A stretch of DNA of 64,000 nucleotides from Bacteroidetes bacterium 41-46 (GTDB lineage Bacteria > Bacteroidota > Bacteroidia > Bacteroidales > UBA932), in the NCBI GenBank assembly GCA_001897515.1, contig MKTA01000019.1, positions 37,726 through 101,725 of the forward strand, read 5' to 3'. Below are positions 18,299-29,949 of the stretch, piece after piece; positions within the stretch are counted from its first letter, which is position 1; the number at the start of each line of letters is the position of its first letter. The notes under the pieces were generated by a model. It saw only the letters and a program-made list of their open reading frames with translations. It was not told the DNA's origin and made no database searches. A program made the position numbers and the translations under genes.

Positions 18299-21200
18299 TT
18301 ATTCCTCCTCTGTATTAACTGTTACCCTTACATCACATCTAAGGCACCTTGAAGCTTCGGCGTATGCCTGCTCCTTCGTGTAGCCCAGGTTGATCTCCTT
18401 GAAATTCCCAAGTCTCTCCTCAAGCGGACGCTTAATAGTGTAGTGTCTGTTTCCGCCCTCGGGTTTAAGAGGAACCTCATCGCTGTAATCAAAGCCTCTG
18501 AATAATTTGTGGAACCTTCGTTTATTCATAAGCTTCCAGTCAATAACCTCTGCAGCCTTCTTAGCAATCCCCATAGCCTCAGCGGCTGTAGCCGGACCTG
18601 TTACTGCGTCGCCAACGGCATAAATGCGAGGATGGTTGGTGGTGAAGGTAAAATGATCTGTATCTATATTCCCATTGCTGACAGTCTTAATACCGAAATC
18701 TTTGGCAAAAGAGGCATCAACTTCCTCTCCTACAGCCATAATAACAGTGTCGCAAGGCAAAATGAACGATTCACCTGTTGGAACAGGTTTGCGTCTGTTT
18801 GAGAGGTCAATCTCTCCGCAAGCCATTTTCATTAGTTCAATTCCGCGTACCTTGTCGTTCGTATCTGCCAGAATCTCCTTAGGAGTACTGAGGAACAAGA
18901 AGTTAACACCCTCAATTTCCGCCCCCTTAATTTCATCTTTATTAGCTGGCATATCGGGCTTCATTCTTCTGTAAACAACTGTAACTTCAGCTCCGTATCT
19001 CTGGGCTGTTCTGGCTGCATCAATGGCAACATTACCAGCTCCTACAACTACAACATGCTTGCCCATCTCAGGGATATTACCCTTTGCCACATCTTTCAGG
19101 AACTCCATTCCGGAAAGGACTCCCTCAAGTTCGCATCCGTTAATACCAAGGCTCATATCTTTATGGGCTCCTATTGCCAGTATTACAATGTTGTAGTCTC
19201 TTTCAAGATCATCCATCATAATATCTTTGCCAATCCTGGTATTGAATACGAAATTTACCCCAAGGTCCTTTATAAACTGTACCTCGTGGTCAAACACATC
19301 CAGCGGAAGTCTGTATTTTGGAATCCCCCATCTGAGAATGCCTCCTGCCTCTGACTCCGATTCAAATATGGTCACATCATGTCCCAGCCTAACCAGATAG
19401 AATGCTGCTGTCAGACCTGCAGGGCCTGATCCTACAATTGCAACCTTTTTATGGGTCTGAGGAAGCTTCTCCCTGATTAGTCTCTCATAAACATTTTTAG
19501 CCACCCCGTCTCTGTATGCAGTGTCCGAAATGTATCTGTGAATGTCTCCCTGAGAGACAGGCGCATCAATCGCCTCTCTTCTGCACTTCATCTGACAGTG
19601 GAAGTGACAAATTCTTCCAATTGAAGATGGAAGAGGATTATCCCTGAGGGTTGATTCAAAAGCGTCCTGAATCTTATCCTCTTTTAGCAGTTGCAAATAC
19701 CTTGGTATATTCATATGCATCGGACAGCTGTTTTCACACAGAGCTGAGAAGAGCTCCTGGCATACACCCGGCTCACACTTTTTCTCAATCATATGATGGT
19801 CATACTCATCTCTAAAATATCTTAGAGTAGTGAGCACAGGATTTGGAGCAGTCTGACCCAGACCGCAGAGAGCGGTTGACTTAATGACTTTGCCAAGATT
19901 TTCCAAAGCATGTATATCGGCCTCAGTAGCCTTACCCAGTGTGAATTTGTTGATTATTCTCAATGTCTGGGCAAGACCCTCTCTGCAAGGTGTGCACTTC
20001 CCGCATGACTCTCCGTTTGAAAATTCTGTAAAGTATCTGGCCACATCTACCATACAGTTGTCCTGATCCATTACAACCATTCCACCGGAGCCCATTATTG
20101 AGCCTAAGGAGCTTAAAGACTCATAATCAACAGGAGTATTTAAATAGTCAACAGGTATGCAACCTCCGGAGGGGCCTCCGGTCTGAACAGCCTTAACTCT
20201 CTTCTGAGTTCCGGTACCCTCTCCGATTTTGAATACTATAGTCTCAAGAGTGGAGCCAAGTGGCAACTCTATCAAACCGGTATTCTTCACCTTTCCTACA
20301 AGCGAGAATACCTTTGTACCCGCACTTTTGTCTGTGCCTGTAGCGGTAAACCACTCACCTCCCTTTGAAATAACAACCGGAATATTGCACCAGGTTTCAA
20401 CATTATTAATGTTAGTCGGCATACCATAAAGTCCCTTTTCTGCCGGATATGGCGGTCGTGGAGATGGTCTTCCGTATTTACCCTCAATACTGTGTATAAG
20501 AGCTGTCTCCTCTCCGCAGACAAATGCTCCTGCACCCTCAACAATATCAATATCAAAGCTAAAGCCAGAATTCATTATATTATCTCCAAGCAATCCATAG
20601 CTCTTTGCCTGCTCAATTGCCCCTTTTAGTCGTCTTACGGCTAACGGGTACTCTGCACGGATATAAACTACACCTTTAGAAGCGCCCATTGCAAAGGCCC
20701 CTATCGTCATACCCTCAAGCAGCATAAATGGATCGCTCTCAATTTCATTTCTATTCATGAAGGCTCCCGGATCCCCTTCATCTGCATTACAGATGATGTA
20801 TTTTTGAGGTGCCTCTCTCTTTGCCATCATCTCCCACTTAACCCCGGTAGGAAAACCGGCTCCCCCTCTTCCTCTAAGCTTAGAGTTCTTTACCTCTTCA
20901 ATTATACTGCTGGAACTCATCTCAAAAAGAGCCTTGTAAAGCGGCTGATAACCACCAACCGCTACGTACTCTTCAATATCATCCGGCACAATGAGGCCGC
21001 AATTTCTGAGTACGATTTTTTTCTGCCACTTAAAGAAGGGGATCTCATTCCAGAGAGGATAATCTGTTAGGCCTCTCCCAAACTCAAATTTTCCGGTAAT
21101 AAAGTCCCACTCCTCAACTCTGCAAAGAACATTTCTGTATGGCATTATCCCTTTTACAATACCTCCAATAATTGGAATAACGTCTATTTCAGATACATTG

Positions 21201-21463
21201 TGCATGATAATCAGAGGGAATCCCGGCATATATATATTTACCAGAGGCTCCTCTGAACAGAACCCAAAGCATCCGGTCTTTTTTAATATAATATCCAGCC
21301 CCCGTTCGCTGATAATTCTTTCAAAACTATCGTATAACAACTCTGCACCTCTGCCAATCCCACATGTGCCCATCCCCACTGCAATGTAGGGTTTGTCCGG
21401 GAGGACCTTCTTAGAAGCACTCTCCCTGAGTCTGTTCAACTCAACTAAGTCTGAGATTCTCAT
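18299..21463 (-). CDS. hydB: HydB/NuoF-like NADH subunit fused to a GltD/NfnB-like flavoprotein
   Basis: A 1054-residue fusion. Residues about 25-110 are a thioredoxin-like 2Fe-2S domain (MGTCGIGRGA...TGCFGFC). Residues about 155-555 are a NuoF-like FMN/NADH domain with RGRGGAGFPTGVKW, CNADEGDPGAF and the 4Fe-4S motif ESCGKCTPCREG near 484 plus a later Cys in ALCGLGQ. Where HydB normally carries two 4Fe-4S ferredoxin motifs, this protein continues into a GltD-type module: helical cysteine domain (CENSCPMHMNIPRYLQ...CHFHCQMKCRREA), FAD site VAIVGSGPAGL near 674, NAD(P)H site VVVVGAGNVAIDAA near 805 and IYAVGDAVTG near 948. It probably routes electrons between H2, NAD(H), ferredoxin and NADP(H). 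ATG 21463 follows a clear AAAGGAGG and overlaps hydC by 23 nt. Confidence 0.9.
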   Translation of the reverse strand: MRISDLVELNRLRESASKKVLPDKPYIAVGMGTCGIGRGAELLYDSFERIISERGLDIILKKTGCFGFCSEEPLVNIYMPGFPLIIMHNVSEIDVIPIIGGIVKGIMPYRNVLCRVEEWDFITGKFEFGRGLTDYPLWNEIPFFKWQKKIVLRNCGLIVPDDIEEYVAVGGYQPLYKALFEMSSSSIIEEVKNSKLRGRGGAGFPTGVKWEMMAKREAPQKYIICNADEGDPGAFMNRNEIESDPFMLLEGMTIGAFAMGASKGVVYIRAEYPLAVRRLKGAIEQAKSYGLLGDNIMNSGFSFDIDIVEGAGAFVCGEETALIHSIEGKYGRPSPRPPYPAEKGLYGMPTNINNVETWCNIPVVISKGGEWFTATGTDKSAGTKVFSLVGKVKNTGLIELPLGSTLETIVFKIGEGTGTQKRVKAVQTGGPSGGCIPVDYLNTPVDYESLSSLGSIMGSGGMVVMDQDNCMVDVARYFTEFSNGESCGKCTPCREGLAQTLRIINKFTLGKATEADIHALENLGKVIKSTALCGLGQTAPNPVLTTLRYFRDEYDHHMIEKKCEPGVCQELFSALCENSCPMHMNIPRYLQLLKEDKIQDAFESTLRDNPLPSSIGRICHFHCQMKCRREAIDAPVSQGDIHRYISDTAYRDGVAKNVYERLIREKLPQTHKKVAIVGSGPAGLTAAFYLVRLGHDVTIFESESEAGGILRWGIPKYRLPLDVFDHEVQFIKDLGVNFVFNTRIGKDIMMDDLERDYNIVILAIGAHKDMSLGINGCELEGVLSGMEFLKDVAKGNIPEMGKHVVVVGAGNVAIDAARTAQRYGAEVTVVYRRMKPDMPANKDEIKGAEIEGVNFLFLSTPKEILADTNDKVRGIELMKMACGEIDLSNRRKPVPTGESFILPCDTVIMAVGEEVDASFAKDFGIKTVSNGNIDTDHFTFTTNHPRIYAVGDAVTGPATAAEAMGIAKKAAEVIDWKLMNKRRFHKLFRGFDYSDEVPLKPEGGNRHYTIKRPLEERLGNFKEINLGYTKEQAYAEASRCLRCDVRVTVNTEEE

Positions 21464-21977
21464 CTTTGTTGTCCTCCTTTAAATTTTGCAATAATTTTTT
21501 AATCTGTTCCGATGTGACATTGCTGTATATCACACCATTGACAGCAACAACAGGGGCAAGGGCGCACTGCCCAAAGCAGGCCACCGTTTTTACGGTGATA
21601 AGCTTATCTTCTGTTGTAAATGAACTCTCTCCTGAATCAAAGGCCTCTTTGCAACCCGGCAGGAGAGAGAGATCATCTAGTAAAATTTTTGATCCTTTTG
21701 TGTGGCAGGCAGTTCCCCTGCACACAATTATAGAATTTTTCCCCTGAGGTTTCAGGTTGAAAAAAGAGTAAAAGGTTGCGACTCCATAGATTTGTGACAG
21801 CGGAACCTTAATGGATGAGGAGAGATACTCCATTGCGTCATCATCAAGAAACTTGTACTCACTTGCTTCCTGAATCTCTTCCATTACAGTAAGCAGTTCG
21901 CCCGGTTTCCCTTTGTGCCTGGAGATTATCTCGTCAATAACCGTCGTATTGACTCGACTTTCTTCGATAGCATTCAT
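21441..21977 (-). CDS. hydC: HydC/NuoE-like 2Fe-2S subunit (first set)
   Basis: A 178-residue NuoE-family subunit with an N-terminal helical bundle (residues 1-85) and a thioredoxin-like 2Fe-2S domain. All four cluster cysteines are seen: CRGTACHTKG near 95-100 and ACFGQCALAP near 137-141. In bifurcating hydrogenases this subunit passes electrons to the FMN-bearing HydB. It overlaps hydB by 23 nt and starts 16 nt after the hydA of the second set, so all six hydrogenase genes form one continuous minus-strand block. The C-terminal tail (KLLQNLKEDNKDENLRLS) lies in the overlap. Confidence 0.9.
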   Translation of the reverse strand: MNAIEESRVNTTVIDEIISRHKGKPGELLTVMEEIQEASEYKFLDDDAMEYLSSSIKVPLSQIYGVATFYSFFNLKPQGKNSIIVCRGTACHTKGSKILLDDLSLLPGCKEAFDSGESSFTTEDKLITVKTVACFGQCALAPVVAVNGVIYSNVTSEQIKKLLQNLKEDNKDENLRLS

Positions 21978-21993
21978 AGGCTAATCTTTTAAG

Positions 21994-23784
21994 TTAAAAA
22001 CTGGATCTTTTTATATATGTTGTGTGTAGAAGCTTATGTGACTTCTCTCCCAGGGGTTTCCCCAAAAAATCTTTATAGATTTTAATTATTTCAGGGTTTT
22101 GATGAGATTTTCTCAATGGCATACCGACATCCTCGGCATAAATAGCCAAAGCTCTCCTCTTTCTGATCTCCGGATTTGTCGGAATTGGCTGACCTCCTCC
22201 ACCAAGGCACCCGCCCGGACAAGCCATAAACTCTACAAAGTGGTAATCTGCATCACCTTTTTTAATTGTATCCATTACAATTTTAGCATTGGCAAGTCCG
22301 TGGGCGACGGCGCATTTTAACTGCACCCCCTCCAGGAAAGACCACTCTTTAAGCGGATTATCAATTTTTATTGAAGCCTCTTTCAGCCCCTCCATTCCCC
22401 TGACAGGAGTTATATTCAGATTCTTAAATGGCACCTCTCTACCTGTAACCAGCTCATAGGCTGTTCTTAAAGCAGCCTCCATTACGCCACCTGTTGCGCC
22501 AAATATTACTCCGGCTCCTGTTGACTCTCCCATGAGCCGGTCAAAATGCATATCGGGCAATCTTAAAAAGTCTATTCCCGCCTGTTTTATCATTATTGCC
22601 AACTCTCTTGTTGTAAGAACATAGTCAACATCTCTGAACCCGCTATCTCTCATTTCAGGACGGGCAGCCTCAAATTTCTTGGCAGTGCAAGGCATTATCG
22701 ATACCGATACAATTTTTGAGGGATCAATCTTCTTCGCCTTTGCATAATATGTTTTAACAAGTGCCCCGAACATTTGCTGGGGAGATTTGCAGGATGAGAG
22801 GTGATTCAGGAAATCTGGGTAGAGATGTTCAATGAATTTTATCCATCCAGGCGAACATGATGTGGCCATTGGAAGTTTAACATCCCCTCTCTTCTCAACT
22901 ATGACCTCCTTTAGCCTTCTAAGTAACTCGCTCCCCTCCTCCATTATGGTGAGGTCTGCAGTAAAATCAGTATCCATAACTGCGTGGAAGCCCAGTCTTT
23001 TGAGAGCTGAGACCATTTTGCCCGTTACCCGCTCTCCGGGGTCAAACCCAAGCTCTTCACCAAGGCCAACCCTTACTGCCGGTGCAGTTTGTACAATTAC
23101 AAACTTCTCTTTGTCTGCAAGTGCACTCCATACATCTTCTATATAGTTCCTTTCAGTAAGCGCACCTGTTGGGCAATGGTTCACACACTGTCCACAGTTT
23201 GTGCACACGACATCGTTCATTGACTTCTCAAAGAATGTAGTAATCTGTGCATGCTCTCCCTTATAGGACATTGTAAGGGCATTTACGCTTTGTAGTTCGG
23301 CACAGGTTCTAACGCATCTCTGGCAACGTATGCATTTGCTGTCATCTTTGATAATAGAGGGCGAGAAGTTATCAATCGTATAATTTCTGAAAGGCACCAG
23401 ATCCAGGAAGTCCTGGGTCATAATTTTATAGTCAGAGGCCAGTTTTTGAAGCTCGCAGTTACCGTTTCTGTAGCAACTTGTACAGTCAGCATTATGTTCC
23501 GAGAGCAGAAGCTCAATTATATGCTTTCTTGCATTCCTCACCTTAAGAGTGTTTGTGAGCACCTCCATGCCATCTTCGCAAGGAGTGGCGCATGCTGCAG
23601 CAAGCCTCTTCTGACCAGCTATCTCAATTACGCAAACGCGGCAGTTTCCGGCTACGCAGAGATCTTTATGGTAGCAAAGTGTTGGGATTATAACTCCCGA
23701 TTGGTTTGCCGCATCCAGTATAGAAGTCCCCGGGGAGACCTCTTTGGTCTCACCGTTAATTGTGATCTTGATTCTCTTTTCCAT
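21994..23784 (-). CDS. hydA: [FeFe]-hydrogenase catalytic subunit (second set)
   Basis: A 596-residue paralogue of the hydA at 16523, with the same domain order: 2Fe-2S domain (1-80), HNADCTSCYRNGNC His-Cys3 site, 4Fe-4S motifs CIRCQRCVRTC and CTNCGQCVNHC, H-cluster motifs TSCSPGW, MPCTAKKFE and ACPGGCLGGGGQP, and a C-terminal small-subunit domain ending KLLHTTYIKRSSF. Every recognisable metal-binding motif is intact, so it is probably active, not a sensory or degenerate copy. It lies 17 nt after its own hydB and 16 nt before the hydC of the first set. With HydB and HydC it matches trimeric NADH- and ferredoxin-dependent (group A3-like) enzymes. Confidence 0.92.
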   Translation of the reverse strand: MEKRIKITINGETKEVSPGTSILDAANQSGVIIPTLCYHKDLCVAGNCRVCVIEIAGQKRLAAACATPCEDGMEVLTNTLKVRNARKHIIELLLSEHNADCTSCYRNGNCELQKLASDYKIMTQDFLDLVPFRNYTIDNFSPSIIKDDSKCIRCQRCVRTCAELQSVNALTMSYKGEHAQITTFFEKSMNDVVCTNCGQCVNHCPTGALTERNYIEDVWSALADKEKFVIVQTAPAVRVGLGEELGFDPGERVTGKMVSALKRLGFHAVMDTDFTADLTIMEEGSELLRRLKEVIVEKRGDVKLPMATSCSPGWIKFIEHLYPDFLNHLSSCKSPQQMFGALVKTYYAKAKKIDPSKIVSVSIMPCTAKKFEAARPEMRDSGFRDVDYVLTTRELAIMIKQAGIDFLRLPDMHFDRLMGESTGAGVIFGATGGVMEAALRTAYELVTGREVPFKNLNITPVRGMEGLKEASIKIDNPLKEWSFLEGVQLKCAVAHGLANAKIVMDTIKKGDADYHFVEFMACPGGCLGGGGQPIPTNPEIRKRRALAIYAEDVGMPLRKSHQNPEIIKIYKDFLGKPLGEKSHKLLHTTYIKRSSF

Positions 23785-23801
23785 CTTTTAATGCTTTGAG
23801 A

Positions 23802-24986
23802 TCAGTATATCATCTCCTCTCTGAAGTTCTCAACTATTGATGAGAAGGAGTTGGCAACGGACTGGCCAAGTCCGCATTTAGCAGTATAGGTCATAGTCTC
23901 GGCAAGCTTAAGCAGCTTGTCCAGATACGCCGCATTTTTCTCTCCGCGCTTCACAGCCTTAATTCCCTTAAGTAACTGCTGGCATCCAACCCGGCATGGG
24001 GTGCACTGCCCGCAAGACTCCTCTGCAAAGAAGTTAAGATAGTTATCAAGTACATTGTACATTGATCTGGAGCTGTTGAAAAGCATCATAGAACCCCCGG
24101 TGGGAAGGGATATCCCCACAAGTCTGCCCTGGAATCCAATTGTTGTCTCAGGAAACCTCTTTCTTGGCACAAGGAAGCCCGATGCTCCGCCCACCTGTAC
24201 AGCCTTTGTGTCATCGTCCCCAAACTCCTCAACAAAATCCACAAGGCTCATACCCAGTTCAAGCTCGTAAATACCGGGCTTTGGGGTATCTCCGGATACT
24301 GAAAAGAGTTTTGTACCTCGTGAGAACTGAACACCCAAATCATAAAACCTTTTGGAGCCGTATTTAAAGATTGTGTAGGTGTGAGCGAGAGTCTCCACAT
24401 TGTTTATAACTGTCGGCTTATTCATGTACCCGCTAGACGACGGGAAAGGAGGCTTATTTCTAGGCTCTCCTCTCTTCCCCTCCATGGACTCAAAAAGGGC
24501 GGTCTCCTCTCCGCAAATGTAGGCTCCTGAGCCCATAAAAATTGATATTGAAAAATCAAAGCCAATTTTTCTGCAGTAACGTTCAAATTCATCTATTGCA
24601 CTCTGCAAATTATCCTTTAAGAAAAAATACTCTCCTCTTAAATAGATAAATCCTTTTTTGGCTCCAATAACGTATGCGCAGACAGCAATAGCAGTAAGAA
24701 CCTTAAACGGAACCCTTGATAAGATCTCCCTGTCTTTGAAAGTTCCCGGTTCTCCCTCGTCTGCGTTACAGATCACAAATTTCTCATCTGCCTTTATCTC
24801 AGATGATATTTTCCACTTCAGGCCGGTTGGAAATCCGGCTCCTCCGCGCCCCTTCAACTCAGAACTTATAAGCTCATTTATAAGCTCATTAGCCGTTCTG
24901 TTAAGGTTCTTCTTTAATACATCTTCCCAGTCGTTGTCACTTTTGAAGATGAAGTCAGCTCTTTTAAGTAGATGAGACGTTGACAT
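23802..24986 (-). CDS. hydB: HydB/NuoF-like FMN/NADH subunit (second set, minimal form)
   Basis: A NuoF-like subunit of about 394 residues: RGGAGFPTGLKW and CNADEGEPGTF for FMN/NADH, GAYICGEETAL, and a 4Fe-4S site ESCGQCTPCRVG plus the later Cys in KCGLGQSVAN. It lacks both the N-terminal thioredoxin-like 2Fe-2S domain and the C-terminal ferredoxin motifs found in many HydB proteins, so the electron path to ferredoxin must use other subunits. The track starts at ATG 25004; ATG 24986 is preferred because GGGGGAGGG sits at good spacing and the resulting 23 nt overlap with hydC exactly equals that of the first set. It ends 17 nt before hydA. Confidence 0.88.
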   Translation of the reverse strand: MSTSHLLKRADFIFKSDNDWEDVLKKNLNRTANELINELISSELKGRGGAGFPTGLKWKISSEIKADEKFVICNADEGEPGTFKDREILSRVPFKVLTAIAVCAYVIGAKKGFIYLRGEYFFLKDNLQSAIDEFERYCRKIGFDFSISIFMGSGAYICGEETALFESMEGKRGEPRNKPPFPSSSGYMNKPTVINNVETLAHTYTIFKYGSKRFYDLGVQFSRGTKLFSVSGDTPKPGIYELELGMSLVDFVEEFGDDDTKAVQVGGASGFLVPRKRFPETTIGFQGRLVGISLPTGGSMMLFNSSRSMYNVLDNYLNFFAEESCGQCTPCRVGCQQLLKGIKAVKRGEKNAAYLDKLLKLAETMTYTAKCGLGQSVANSFSSIVENFREEMIY

Positions 24987-25467
24987 TTTTTGTCCCTCCC
25001 CCATTACTGTTTATGTAACTGGTGAGAATATCCCGAACCTTTTCGGGAGTCAATTCAGTGTACACTTCATTGTTGATAAGCATTGCCGGAGCCTTGTGGC
25101 AGAATCCAAGGCAATTTGTCTGAAGCAATGAGAAGTTCCCGTCCGGAGTTGTCTCCCCAACCTTTATCTTCAGCATCTCCTGAATAGCAAGAAGGATCTG
25201 ATTTTCACCCTTCATAGAGCAGGTTATGGTTTTACAAAGCCGGATAATGTATTTGCCCATCTTCTTGTATTCAAGAAATGAATAGAATGTTGCAGTCCCG
25301 TAAACCTCTGCAGCGGGCAAATCAAGTTCTCGTGCAATCTGGGTCATTGAGTACTCAGAGAGATATTTTTCCTGTTCTACGACTCCCTGTAATATTGGCA
25401 ACAGACTGCTCCTTTCGCGTCCATGCCTTTCGGCCAGGCGCCTGATTAAATCACTTATTGGTTCCAT
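24964..25467 (-). CDS. hydC: HydC/NuoE-like 2Fe-2S subunit (second set)
   Basis: A 167-residue NuoE-family subunit and the first gene of the six-gene hydrogenase block. The N-terminal helices are followed by the thioredoxin-like 2Fe-2S domain with all four cysteines: CKTITCSMKG near 88-93 and NCLGFCHKAP near 129-133. It is clearly paralogous to the hydC at 21441 but diverged. A 258 bp gap upstream, shared with the divergent gene at 25726, should hold the promoter. Start ATG 25467 has no strong Shine-Dalgarno sequence, as is usual for first genes in this phylum. Confidence 0.9.
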   Translation of the reverse strand: MEPISDLIRRLAERHGRERSSLLPILQGVVEQEKYLSEYSMTQIARELDLPAAEVYGTATFYSFLEYKKMGKYIIRLCKTITCSMKGENQILLAIQEMLKIKVGETTPDGNFSLLQTNCLGFCHKAPAMLINNEVYTELTPEKVRDILTSYINSNGGGTKNVNVSST

Positions 25468-25725
25468 TCCTCTGGTTTTGAATGTTTAAACTTGAGACGG
25501 AGACACAAATAACAAAAGGGCAAGTAAATTTATAAAAAATTAACAAAACATTAACTATCAATTACAATTATATATCAAACAAAGGGGCCTTCAGTTACAA
25601 AGTGTAATTAAAAAGTTTATTTTATTAATCAAAAGAGAAAGATCTATTATTTAAAAATATTCTATAGGGTATCTGCAGGGTTGTTCGTCTTGATGTCAGA
25701 AGGGACAAACTAAAAAACAAAAAAG
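25468..25725. promoter_or_regulatory. Divergent intergenic region between hydrogenase block and exported-protein gene
   Basis: 258 AT-rich bases that should carry promoters for both the hydrogenase block (minus) and the gene at 25726 (plus). I found no full TTTG-N19-21-TAnnTTTG promoter on either strand and no Rex-like TTGTGA palindrome. A small palindrome TTACAAAGTGTAA (25595-25607) is the only symmetric element noticed and could be chance. Confidence 0.4.
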
Positions 25726-26991
25726 ATGAAAACAATAATCAGACAAATGGCGGGACTGGCGATTGCCATTTTGATGCTTGCTCAGCAAAATATCGGCTGG
25801 GCTCAGTCAGAGAGAGACTACTATACAATAAGCGGTGTTGTAAAAGAGAAACTATCTCAAAAGAAGCTTGAGTATGCTGTAGTAGCACTTAAGGGTTCAA
25901 AAGTTGGAACCATTGCAAACGCAAATGGAGAATTTTCTATAAAGGTAAAGGGGAATAGCGGAGCAAAAGCTGTTGTATTCTCACACCTGGGATACTCTAA
26001 TTACGAACTGCCTATTGACGGTAAAGATATGAGTGATGTTGTCATCTACCTGGAGCAGAAATCCAGTCAGCTTGATCCGGTTACAATTCTTGGAATGGAT
26101 GGGAAGGGGCTGGTTGAGCTCGCAATGGAGAGGGTAGAGAGAAATTATCCATCTTCAAAAAACGCACTATCAGGATTCTACAGAGAGACCGTTAAGAAGA
26201 GAAGAAGCTATATCAATGTTTCGGAAGCGGTTGTGGACATTTACAAAACTCCATATATGGAGGGTGTTGAGAGAGATGCCGTGCAAGTTTACAAAGGTCG
26301 CAAGCTTGTTAGTCCGGATCCAAAGGACACACTAATGGTTAAGCTTCTTGGAGGGCCAAACCTCTCAATATACCTTGATGTCGTTAAGAACCCTGATCTT
26401 ATTCTCAGCAGAGAGAACCTTGATCTGTACAGCTTCAGAATTGAGGAATCAGTAACAATTGGAGAGAGACCTCACTATGTGGTGAGCTTCCAGCCACAGG
26501 TTATCATGCCATACGCTCTCTACAGTGGTAAACTATTTATTGACAAAGGAAACTATACATTCTCAAGAGCTGAGTTCAAACTCAGTATGTCCGACAGGAA
26601 TAAAGCCACACAAGCCATTCTAAAGAGAAAGCCTTTTGGGATGCACTTTAAACCTGAAGAGGTATCATTCCTGGTAACATACAGACAAGAGGGCAATATG
26701 GCGCTGCTTCACTACATCAGAAGCGAGATTAACTTCAAGTGTGACTGGAAAAAGAGACTATTCTCAACAAGTTACTCAATTGTCTCTGAAACTGTTGTTA
26801 CAGACAGCAACTTTGATGACGCCAAGAGAATACCACTAAGAGTTGCTTTCAAAGACAATCAATCCCTTTCAGATAAAGTATCAAACTTTGTAGATAAGGA
26901 TTTTTGGGAGGATTACAATATAATTGAGCCTGAGGAGTCACTTGAGAACGCAGTTGAAAAACTGAGAAAGGCAATAAATTCAAGAAAATAA
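25726..26991 (+). CDS. Exported carboxypeptidase-regulatory-like domain protein, no receptor barrel
   Basis: A 421-residue secreted protein. A signal peptide (MKTIIRQMAGLAIAILMLAQQNIGWAQ) precedes a CarboxypepD_reg-like beta-sandwich (residues about 33-112, YYTISGVVKEKLSQKKLEYA). The rest (about 120-421) is a mostly beta region beginning with SGFYRETVKKRRSYINVSEA and ending FWEDYNIIEPEESLENAVEKL. It has no TonB-dependent plug or barrel. The C-terminal region is clearly related to that of the gene at 28432, which follows the sigma/FecR pair. Start ATG 25726 follows an A-rich leader. Likely periplasmic or outer-membrane associated; the function is not known. Confidence 0.8.
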   Translation: MKTIIRQMAGLAIAILMLAQQNIGWAQSERDYYTISGVVKEKLSQKKLEYAVVALKGSKVGTIANANGEFSIKVKGNSGAKAVVFSHLGYSNYELPIDGKDMSDVVIYLEQKSSQLDPVTILGMDGKGLVELAMERVERNYPSSKNALSGFYRETVKKRRSYINVSEAVVDIYKTPYMEGVERDAVQVYKGRKLVSPDPKDTLMVKLLGGPNLSIYLDVVKNPDLILSRENLDLYSFRIEESVTIGERPHYVVSFQPQVIMPYALYSGKLFIDKGNYTFSRAEFKLSMSDRNKATQAILKRKPFGMHFKPEEVSFLVTYRQEGNMALLHYIRSEINFKCDWKKRLFSTSYSIVSETVVTDSNFDDAKRIPLRVAFKDNQSLSDKVSNFVDKDFWEDYNIIEPEESLENAVEKLRKAINSRK

Positions 26992-27005
26992 TTGTTCATT
27001 TTTAG

Positions 27006-27013
27006 TAAATTTG
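27006..27013 (+). promoter_or_regulatory. Possible -7 box upstream of the ECF sigma gene
   Basis: TAAATTTG matches TAnnTTTG, 24 bases before the sigma-factor ATG. No TTTG -33 element at proper spacing is seen. It may equally be served by read-through from the gene at 25726, which ends 45 bases upstream. Confidence 0.3.
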
Positions 27014-27036
27014 GAGGTTAATTTTAAAATCCAAAC

Positions 27037-27579
27037 ATGATTAGCGATCTGCTACTGTTAATCAGAACAAGGGAGGGGGATGTAAAAAGTTTTGAAATTC
27101 TTTTCAAGAGCTATTATCTCCCCCTTTTAAACTATTCAGCAACAATTACAGGCAGACGAGAGATTTCAGAGGAGATAGTACAGGAATTGTTCTACAATTT
27201 ATGGCGTGAGAGGGAGCGGCTAAGCATAACAAAAAGTATTAAGAGCTATCTTTACAATTCAATTCGCAACAGATCCATTGATTACTGCAGAAGAAGAAAA
27301 TTTGAGGAGAATTCATCAGATATACTGGAGAATATTAGTTCAGGCACATCATGGGAGAGCCCCCAGGAGAGGGCTGAGGCCGGAGAGATGGAGAGAATTA
27401 TTAATCGCATACTTGCAAGGATGCCTGCTAGAAGAAGAGATATCTTCATGATGAACAGGGAGGGGAACAAAAAGTACGAAGAGATTGCCGCCATCCTCTC
27501 CTTATCAGTAAAAACAGTAGAGGCGGAGATGGCGAAAGCCCTAAAGGTGTTAAGAAAAGAGACAGGATACAGACGATGA
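27037..27579 (+). CDS. ECF RNA polymerase sigma factor (FecI-like)
   Basis: A 180-residue group IV sigma factor. Region 2 is residues about 10-80 (FEILFKSYYLPLLNYSATIT, EEIVQELFYNLW, YLYNSIRNRSIDYCRRRK); region 4 is about 120-175 (RMPARRRDIFMMNREGNKKYEEIAAILSLSVKTVEAEMAKAL) with a clear helix-turn-helix. This is the Bacteroidetes sigma-70 expansion type that works with FecR-type anti-sigma factors. Its stop overlaps the start of the FecR gene by 4 bases (ATGA), indicating translational coupling. Likely targets are the neighbouring exported proteins at 25726 and 28432 and its own operon. Confidence 0.93.
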   Translation: MISDLLLLIRTREGDVKSFEILFKSYYLPLLNYSATITGRREISEEIVQELFYNLWRERERLSITKSIKSYLYNSIRNRSIDYCRRRKFEENSSDILENISSGTSWESPQERAEAGEMERIINRILARMPARRRDIFMMNREGNKKYEEIAAILSLSVKTVEAEMAKALKVLRKETGYRR

Positions 27580-28421
27580 AAAGAGAATTATCAAACGAGG
27601 AGAGGTTAATGACCGACAAAGCCTGGGGTAGGCTTAAAGAGAGGCTAGAGAGAGATGGTCTTCTGGAGGAGCCTGTTACCAGACAAAACCACAGGACAGC
27701 ATATGCCTTAGCAATAGCTGCAATGTTTATACTAATGGTAACAGCCGGTCTGCTGTTTACCGGCCAGAAAGAGGAGCCCATTGACACACTAACAGCCCGA
27801 CTGTTCAACGACACACCAGGCACTACCTATGTTTCAAAACTGGATGACGGATCTGTAATATATCTTTCAGAGAACACAACTGTCAAACATTCAGACCTTG
27901 TCTCGGAACCTACCAGAGAGATTACTCTTGAAGGAGAGGCATTTTTTGATATTCGCAGAGATGCGTCAAAACCATTTGTTATTAACGCCGGAGACTCAAA
28001 AATAGAGGTTCTCGGGACCTCTTTTGAAGTTGCCTGCAAATCCGGGGAGACAGTTCTCTCGGTTAAGACAGGCCTGGTTAGAATAACACAGATAAGCACC
28101 GGTAAAGCCATGTTGGTTAAAGAGGGGGAGAGAGCAATTGCAGATGCAGGAGGAATAAAGATTCAATCTCTGGGAGAGTATGAGGGATTTAAGAAATATA
28201 AATCAAAAATGCACTTCAAGGATGAATCACTGGGCAATATCTCAGAAATCATAAACCGAAACTTCACAGAAACAGAGATAATTCTTGACCCCGCTATTTC
28301 TGGCAGAGAGTTAACGGCCACCTTCTCTGAAGATAATCCTGAAGCTATGGTAAGGTTAATCTGCAGCGCACTTAACTTAAATTATACTATTGAGGGCAGA
28401 GTTATAAAAATAGGTACATAA
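27576..28421 (+). CDS. FecR-family anti-sigma factor
   Basis: A 281-residue inner-membrane anti-sigma factor. Residues 1-42 are cytoplasmic and should bind the sigma factor, one membrane helix lies at about 43-65 (AYALAIAAMFILMVTAGLLF), the periplasmic FecR domain is about 85-185 (YVSKLDDGSVIYLSENTTVKH, FDIRRDASKPFVINAGDSKIEVLGTSF), and a C-terminal DUF4974-like domain covers about 205-281 (MHFKDESLGNISEIINRNF). In Fec-type systems the periplasmic part reads the signalling state of an outer-membrane protein through its STN domain; here the STN protein is encoded 10 nt downstream but has no barrel. The start overlaps the sigma gene stop (ATGA). Confidence 0.93.
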   Translation: MKRELSNEERLMTDKAWGRLKERLERDGLLEEPVTRQNHRTAYALAIAAMFILMVTAGLLFTGQKEEPIDTLTARLFNDTPGTTYVSKLDDGSVIYLSENTTVKHSDLVSEPTREITLEGEAFFDIRRDASKPFVINAGDSKIEVLGTSFEVACKSGETVLSVKTGLVRITQISTGKAMLVKEGERAIADAGGIKIQSLGEYEGFKKYKSKMHFKDESLGNISEIINRNFTETEIILDPAISGRELTATFSEDNPEAMVRLICSALNLNYTIEGRVIKIGT

Positions 28422-28431
28422 AGCTCTCCTG

Positions 28432-29949
28432 ATGAAAAAACAGTTGACAAGATTAGTAATGCTCACAGCTATTTCATTATTTGCTGCGAGCATATCTTTT
28501 GCTCAATCTGGCATAGATGGTGAAAAATTCAGAACAAGGCAGATAAGAGGGAGCACATACGATCTGCTAAACAGCATCTCAACAAAAACCGGCCTCATGT
28601 TTATCTATGACAGCAAGTTGATTGACAACAAAAGGAGGTCAAAACTTGACGCGGGAGAGTACACAATAGAGGAGGCGGTAAAGAGTATTACCGGCAACAG
28701 CCAATTGAAAATCAAAAGAGATGGCAACCACATACTGGTTTTCAAAGAGATGGCTCCGGAAAAAAGACCAGAGGATATACTATACAATGGAGAACGCTTC
28801 ATACAGATAGAGGGCAGGGTCACCGACAGGCACAGCGGAGAGCCCATAATGTTCGTTACGGTCAACCCCGAGGGGTGTTCAATAGGAACAGTTACAAACC
28901 AGGAGGGCCAATTCAGACTTACTATTCCAGACTCCCTTTCAGAAAGAGCGATATCATTCTCATCAATGGGATACGAAAAGAGAAAAATCTCTGCAAGTTT
29001 ACTGACACAAGGAGGCGCCACAATTGAGATGATGCAGAGTGTGATACCTCTTCAGGAGGTCATAATTAAGGTTATTGACCCGGCTACAGTGCTGTCTGAG
29101 GCGCTTAGGAGAAGAGGTGCAAACTATAGCCCATCACCAATTAATATTACAGGATTCTTCCGAGAGGGCACCGAGTTCAAGGGAAATCTCAGTCTAAGTG
29201 AAGCGGTTATAAAAATATATAAAACAGGCTTCTCCCCAACACTTACTACCGATCAGGTGAAATTGCTTAAAATGAGGAAAATTACCAACATGGAGGGCCG
29301 GGACACCATAGTAGCCAAACTTAGATCCTCACTTAATGCAGTCCTGTTGCTTGACATAATGAAACACCCGCCGGATTTTCTGGAGAGAGTAGGGATGAAC
29401 TATTACAATTTCACACATACTGGTGTAACAGAAATTGATGAGAGAAGAGTCTATATATTTTCATTTGTACAGAGAGATGAGATAGTTGAGGCACTCTTCA
29501 AAGGAGATCTGTATATTGATGCAGAGAACAGTGCCCTGGTAAAGGCAGTATTTGAGGTCAATCCAAATCATATCAGAAAATTTTCAGACAATCTGATAGT
29601 AAAGAGAAGCAAAACTCACGAAGTCATCCCCGTTAAAGCCTCTTATGAAGTCTCCTACAAACAATTCAGAGGCTACTACCACATAAGCCATGTAAGAGGA
29701 GACCTAAACTTCAAGATCAGAAAAAAGGGGCGCCTCTTCACATCTCCCCTCCACCTCTGGTTTGAGATGGCAAATTGCAGAACCGATACTGAAAATGTGG
29801 AGCGCTTCCTTTCAGATGAAAGACTCTCCACAAGAGACATTTTCTCAGATGTCCAGTTCACATATGACCCCAACTTCTGGGAGCACTTTAATATAATAAT
29901 TCCGGAAAAAAAGATTGAAGAGATTATCAGGGAGTATAATTTCCGTTAA
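28432..29949 (+). CDS. STN plus carboxypeptidase-regulatory domain protein lacking a TonB receptor barrel
   Basis: A 505-residue exported protein. The signal peptide MKKQLTRLVMLTAISLFAASISFAQ is followed by an STN (secretin/TonB short N-terminal) domain (about 45-110, STYDLLNSISTKTGLMFIYD), a CarboxypepD_reg-like domain (about 125-205, IQIEGRVTDRHSGEPIMF), and a C-terminal region (about 225-505) homologous to the protein at 25726, including TGFFREGTEFKG and FWEHFNIIIPEKKI. A SusC/FecA-type receptor would be about 1000 residues with a plug and 22-strand barrel; neither is present. As the third gene of the sigma/FecR operon it probably signals to FecR through its STN domain. Confidence 0.85.
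   Translation: MKKQLTRLVMLTAISLFAASISFAQSGIDGEKFRTRQIRGSTYDLLNSISTKTGLMFIYDSKLIDNKRRSKLDAGEYTIEEAVKSITGNSQLKIKRDGNHILVFKEMAPEKRPEDILYNGERFIQIEGRVTDRHSGEPIMFVTVNPEGCSIGTVTNQEGQFRLTIPDSLSERAISFSSMGYEKRKISASLLTQGGATIEMMQSVIPLQEVIIKVIDPATVLSEALRRRGANYSPSPINITGFFREGTEFKGNLSLSEAVIKIYKTGFSPTLTTDQVKLLKMRKITNMEGRDTIVAKLRSSLNAVLLLDIMKHPPDFLERVGMNYYNFTHTGVTEIDERRVYIFSFVQRDEIVEALFKGDLYIDAENSALVKAVFEVNPNHIRKFSDNLIVKRSKTHEVIPVKASYEVSYKQFRGYYHISHVRGDLNFKIRKKGRLFTSPLHLWFEMANCRTDTENVERFLSDERLSTRDIFSDVQFTYDPNFWEHFNIIIPEKKIEEIIREYNFR

Follow-up and report, generated by a model that had tools for sequence, protein, structure and literature searches.

FecI/FecR systems are usually taken as switches for nutrient or metal uptake, in which FecR listens to a TonB-dependent receptor through the receptor's STN domain. 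What does such a system listen to when its STN domain sits on a protein with neither plug nor barrel? The question is raised by a four-gene locus in a 64,000-nt window of Bacteroidetes bacterium 41-46 (contig MKTA01000019.1, positions 37,726 to 101,725; coordinates below are positions in this window), which the original prediction described as a sigma/FecR set flanked by two barrel-less sensor proteins and detached from transport. Here the same FecI/FecR parts are kept with no STN-bearing receptor found, and the sensing end has the predicted fold of a lipid carrier. On balance, we favor the view that the locus is an autoregulated operon whose FecI/FecR parts serve a sensor of lipids or lipoproteins in the periplasm, with a logic like that of RseB and RseA and with P1, the product of its first gene, as the main output. 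Architecture, conservation, a sole FecR/STN pair, an upstream motif and a second assembly of the same parts point to this view from the sequence side, and the fold does so from predicted models.

The four genes lie on the forward strand in the order P1, sigma, FecR and STN protein (hereafter the sensor), with gaps of 45, −4 and 10 bp between successive genes, and all four open reading frames (ORFs) are where they had been placed before. P1 (25726..26991, 421 aa) consists of a signal peptide, a carboxypeptidase-regulatory domain (CPD; CarbopepD_reg_2, residues 35-120, 25828..26085) that structurally matches SusC N-terminal extension (NTE) and transthyretin-like domains (9hfj, 5aq0), and an unnamed C-terminal region whose predicted fold is LolA-like (residues 125-421, 26098..26988). 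It is followed by an extracytoplasmic function (ECF) sigma factor of the Bacteroidetes family TIGR02985 (27037..27579; 1.6e-45) and by a FecR anti-sigma/sigma regulator (27576..28421; PF04773, 6.1e-15; FecR_C, 6.2e-6), which has about 42 cytoplasmic residues, a transmembrane segment near residues 43-62, FecR at 88-169 and FecR_C at 211-279. The sensor (28432..29949, 505 aa) carries a signal peptide, an STN domain (residues 56-105, 28597..28746; PF07660, 3.3e-9) that structurally matches the FecA signalling domain (1zzv), a CarbopepD_reg_2 domain (residues 126-212, 28807..29067) and a C-terminal domain again predicted to be LolA-like (residues 214-505, 29071..29946). A profile scan of P1 and the sensor gave no match to Plug or TonB_dep_Rec in either.

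P1 and the sensor align across CPD and C-terminal region alike (386 aa, 26% identity, E = 4e-45), and both carry the motifs FYRE and FWE..NII.PE, in which the key residues vary little or not at all within the families. The description of a sigma/FecR set flanked by related STN/CPD proteins thus stands, domains and common C-terminal region included, and both proteins do lack a barrel; the pairing as two sensors can be refined, as only the protein at 28432 has an STN domain and it is therefore the sole candidate partner of FecR, while the one at 25726 is an STN-less paralogue. The only cysteine of P1 is at residue 339 and those of the sensor are at 149 and 449, so that neither signal peptide holds one; the lipobox cysteine of a LolB-type lipoprotein signal is absent from both, and we take both to be soluble periplasmic proteins.

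The order P1, sigma, FecR, STN protein is kept in 20 loci around orthologues, in the genus and in two further genera, and the flanks vary. A contig search with a single protein gave no matches; a profile built from the alignment of the C-terminal domain found relatives in Parabacteroides, Dysgonomonas, Bacteroides nordii, Phocaeicola faecalis, Paludibacter, Lentimicrobiaceae and other Bacteroidales. Exactly P1, sigma and FecR stand upstream in 76 of the 88 places where STN is joined to this C-terminal domain, which come from many Bacteroidales families and count some genomes twice (once under a handle of ours and once as a named record). The remaining 12 comprise four of a second lineage discussed below, three contig ends, one locus (L050) with no full FecR frame called at the module, and four apparent artefacts of a simple gene finder. 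In an order-wide sample, a short protein lies 2.9-4.8 kb upstream of a long one of STN-protein size in 38/56 genomes, as judged by frame length, not by domains; Flavobacteriaceae and Marinilabiliaceae, among the best matches, have the stand-alone short protein only. By these sequence comparisons, the four-gene order is conserved far beyond chance. The neighbours give no lead to function, as the flanks differ among relatives.

Two departures from this arrangement were seen. At L110, two tandem copies of P1 precede sigma, and a comparable tandem spacing occurs in G210, G319 and G405. Two loci of one contig (L072 and L073, G008:C21) appear to be a decayed module, with an intact P1-like gene, a fragment of FecR and, about 26 kb away, an STN protein whose frame is broken by numerous stops or frameshifts.

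The sensing end was approached through AlphaFold models built from family alignments (mean predicted local distance difference test score 89.6 for the sensor and 91.4 for P1). The modelled C-terminal domain has about ten antiparallel strands of at most 17 residues, intervening helices and a C-terminal helix, and no membrane barrel appears in the predicted models of P1 or the sensor, in line with the original prediction. Its best Foldseek matches in the PDB are DUF1329, putative lipoprotein-sorting domains, LolA superfamily proteins, LolA3 and LolB of P. gingivalis, microsomal triglyceride transfer protein and lipovitellin; these matches are locally confident (E ~1e-6 to 1e-5, probability 1.00), and porin or autotransporter barrels were matched only at E ~0.005 or worse with low probability. 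At the profile level, hhalign aligned the C-terminal domain with PF17131 (LolA_like) at 72-73%, falling to 29% with sensors alone, and the control profiles of sigma, FecR, CPD and STN gave <1% each; a PDB sequence search with the C-terminal profile returned no relative. The models suggest that the domain is probably a half-barrel of the lipid-carrier fold class, which may bind lipid. This favors the earlier proposal that the C-terminal family is the ligand-binding part, and the match to lipid carriers makes more specific the idea that the set senses the state of the envelope.

Could the sensor read protein and not lipid, its CPD and half-barrel binding unfolded outer-membrane proteins or SusC-type NTEs and so reporting a failing outer-membrane assembly? 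The CPD does resemble the SusC NTE domain (9hfj), and unfolded outer-membrane proteins are the signal for some stress systems of the periplasm. However, the fold class matched is that of lipid and lipoprotein carriers, and no constant outer-membrane-assembly neighbour accompanies the module, so we regard protein sensing as unlikely, though worth keeping in mind.

A second question is what the sigma factor controls. A motif TAGGGTA-N15-GTCTTG (25665..25692, forward strand) begins 61 bp before the start codon of P1 and would be the −35/−10 of the module's own sigma factor; across modules the motif before P1 has the ECF-type consensus TAGGGTA-N15-RTCTTA. We scored the pattern TAGGGTA-N14-17-GTCTTA (maximum 13) upstream of P1 in 74 modules and found a score of at least 11 in 67 and of at least 12 in 52. 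Simple shuffles (n=370) never reached 12 and reached 11 nine times, and 21 stand-alone paralogues and four sigma genes of the second lineage scored at most 10. As the consensus was first read from a subset of the same modules, the figure of 67/74 is descriptive, and the paralogues are the fair control. A second strong intergenic target was not found in the genome itself or in eleven named genomes, where hits were no commoner than for the reversed-pattern control; the good intergenic match in each genome searched is the module itself. The lack of excess hits, together with this match, indicates that the sigma factor most likely acts mainly on its own operon, of which P1 is the first gene. P1, lying behind the promoter, would then be the main evident output of the sigma factor, a point absent from the original prediction.

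Alternatively, P1 may be a minor member of a broad envelope-stress regulon governed by this sigma factor. Our pattern search used a strict consensus, and the −10 element GTCTTA looks common to other sigma factors (TAGGGGTTTTT...GTCTTA stands before porin-like genes in Parabacteroides). Nevertheless, the module supplies the good intergenic match in each of the eleven named genomes, with no more hits overall than the reversed pattern gives; we therefore judge a broad regulon to be rather improbable.

Two observations on intergenic strings stand apart from the module. In five Parabacteroides loci (L224, L237, L238, L242, L244), ORFs with signal peptides follow the related motif TAGGGGTTTTT-N-GTCTTA; three of these ORFs are alike and porin-like, and the motif perhaps serves a different ECF sigma factor. 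The string TAGGGTTTTTGCNTTTTTTGAGATTTTG, which looks like a dispersed repeat, is present at three places that lie outside long ORFs (G000:C18:274231, C22:40371, C22:46438), one of them at a contig end.

Might a receptor for the set be waiting elsewhere? A whole-assembly scan (2.47 Mb, 93% complete) found no FecR and no STN domain besides the single one of each in the module, so that no STN-bearing transporter was found as a hidden partner. Across another 20 genomes of the genus, the numbers of FecR and STN domains roughly keep pace with each other, from 1 to 35, and most of the extra STN domains sit in frames of ~1,000-1,200 aa, a size that fits receptors; G199 (76% complete), too, has a single FecR and a single STN. 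These counts suggest that the barrel-less pair is what remains where transport-linked pairs are absent, as in this species and G199. Among relatives, a plug protein lies within two genes of the STN gene in one genome only (seen twice), and ten long neighbours checked as receptors comprise nine unrelated proteins and one plug protein (L078). The claim of detachment from transport therefore holds up, both in the genome, where no other STN or FecR is detectable, and among relatives, where receptors are almost never adjacent.

The history of the sensor points the same way. In a quick tree of 117 C-terminal domains, the 41 sampled sensors of the module form one group (SH-aLRT 99). Four other proteins with STN, CPD and this C-terminal domain, each behind a different sigma-FecR pair, nest among stand-alone paralogues of the same genome family. 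A common origin of both STN-bearing sets was considered and is rejected (p-AU 8e-9), and the sigma and FecR proteins of the two sets are also distant from each other. The second set (L060, L062, L063 and L065, of the same family but other genera) lacks P1 and the TAGGGT motif. STN has thus come to be joined to the C-terminal domain beside FecR on two or more occasions, and this speaks for a working link between sensor and FecR.

An ordinary FecI/FecR system with its TonB-dependent receptor elsewhere, and with an STN protein that is either a decoy or what is left of a receptor after loss of the barrel, could be argued from the transport-signalling families of FecR, sigma and STN, the extra FecR-STN sets with receptor-size frames in many genus members and the plug protein next to the module in one relative (L078), but it is very unlikely and we reject it for this genome, which has no other STN found, since decay would not give a single supported 41-row barrel-less group with an operon kept across families, and a second barrel-less set arose independently.

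How might a lipid sensor of this kind signal? Two precedents, when joined, give the model that we propose. The signalling (STN) domain of PupB stabilises the periplasmic part of PupR, which is otherwise degraded (PMC9249621), and the half-barrel of MucB/RseB releases the anti-sigma factor once it has bound lipid A (PMC7400510). By analogy, the STN domain of the sensor would bind the periplasmic portion of FecR, which spans the membrane once, and keep FecR, and so sigma, off. The LolA-like half-barrel would capture an acylated ligand misplaced in the periplasm, such as a mislocalised lipoprotein, lipopolysaccharide or another lipid, and binding would loosen STN from FecR. FecR, once freed, would be open to periplasmic and RseP-type proteolysis, releasing sigma; the genome has one M50 (RseP-type) protease. 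Sigma would transcribe from TAGGGTA-N15-RTCTTA before P1, so that P1, sigma, FecR and sensor rise together. P1, which has the CPD and LolA-like domains and lacks STN, would be the main output, probably binding or passing on the same ligand and thereby quenching the signal. We infer the STN-FecR contact, the lipid ligand, the sign of signalling, the proteolysis and the function of P1.

Several points weigh against this lipid-sensor model. The structural superpositions are poor (template modelling score to target 0.34-0.41, root-mean-square deviation >10 Å), so that 'LolA-like' is only a statement of fold class, and classic LolA (PF03548) was not matched (no profile match; hhalign 3%). Another STN domain could be missing, as the genome is 93% complete, and the sigma factor may have a wider regulon with degenerate promoters.

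Comparison with known systems helps to place the module. It has the FecI-like ECF sigma factor, the FecR with a cytoplasmic N-terminus, one transmembrane segment and FecR and FecR_C domains, and the FecA-fold STN partner of the FecI/FecR/FecA systems (E. coli fec, PupB/PupR, FpvA/FpvR). It departs from them in where STN sits: a soluble periplasmic CPD and LolA-fold protein carries it in place of a TonB-dependent receptor that has plug and barrel. No plug, barrel or receptor gene is present, and the operon opens with an STN-less paralogue and has its own common promoter motif. The proposed likeness to RseB/MucB, RseA/MucA and RpoE/AlgU is that a soluble periplasmic half-barrel of the lipid-carrier class controls an anti-sigma factor; here, however, contact would run through STN, FecR replaces RseA, and the RseP step is assumed. 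No module protein matched the RseB/MucB or RseA families in Pfam/NCBIfam at E 0.1. Since neither the receptor nor an RseB family match was found, we file the module as a variant of FecI/FecR signalling that is neither of the receptor-linked kind nor RseB. With LolA, LolB, LolA3 and PF17131 of Bacteroidota it shares the C-terminal fold class and a periplasmic signal peptide, but its domain is joined to CPD and STN and linked to sigma, the classic LolA profile is unmatched and the LolB lipobox is absent. The Dma/Das dual membrane-spanning anti-sigma systems of Bacteroides are likewise Bacteroidota envelope ECF systems that strongly regulate their own operon, and the Dma anti-sigma factor is a single protein with a tether and a C-terminal beta-barrel (PMC13088901), whereas the module has a separate FecR and soluble sensor; Dma has no FecR, STN or LolA-fold sensor.

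An earlier account of the arrangement, or a paper calling it standard, was not found in the open-licence literature, the scope of our search (subscription papers and preprints lie outside it). The component families are known and single-gene annotations surely exist; the wiring appears undescribed. More tentatively, and with the odds slightly against it, the module may represent a widespread undescribed envelope-stress pathway of Bacteroidota, put together on at least two separate occasions. In it, FecR would take its input, by way of a transplanted STN, from a soluble sensor that binds lipid or lipoprotein, and the STN-less twin would be the chief output, an equivalent of sigmaE-RseB made from transport-signalling parts. 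Bacteroidota are rich in surface lipoproteins, and papers are only beginning to describe the parts of their lipoprotein transport (PMC11885536, PMC13103446). Should our reading be true, there is a named operon to work with, a promoter to use as a reporter and a ligand to look for, in culturable species such as Parabacteroides gordonii or Dysgonomonas hofstadii, and annotating FecR/STN pairs as transport by default is unwarranted.

Some minor observations concern neighbouring genes. The second-set operon adjoins an acyl-ACP (acyl carrier protein) thioesterase gene in L060 and L063. A stand-alone paralogue with CPD and C-terminal domain adjoins genes for an MgsA-type AAA ATPase and a PIG-L/glucosamine isomerase (L076, domain scan), and similar neighbour sizes recur at L058 (G000:C32 near 101260), L077, L061, L064 and L071; MgsA, MnmE and PIG-L neighbours were considered as a functional clue to the module and set aside, as they belong to the stand-alone paralogues. 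At L059:6804-7748 (G000:C30 near 86914), a paralogue of 314 aa with no CPD match in Pfam sits between YicC-like and dipeptidyl peptidase IV-type peptidase genes. In the window itself, the minus strand at 18299-25467, divergent from the module, carries genes that by eye encode NADH-dehydrogenase-type and iron-only-hydrogenase-like subunits, with the small and flavin subunits present twice, and a neighbour of this kind recurs in several, not all, genus members.

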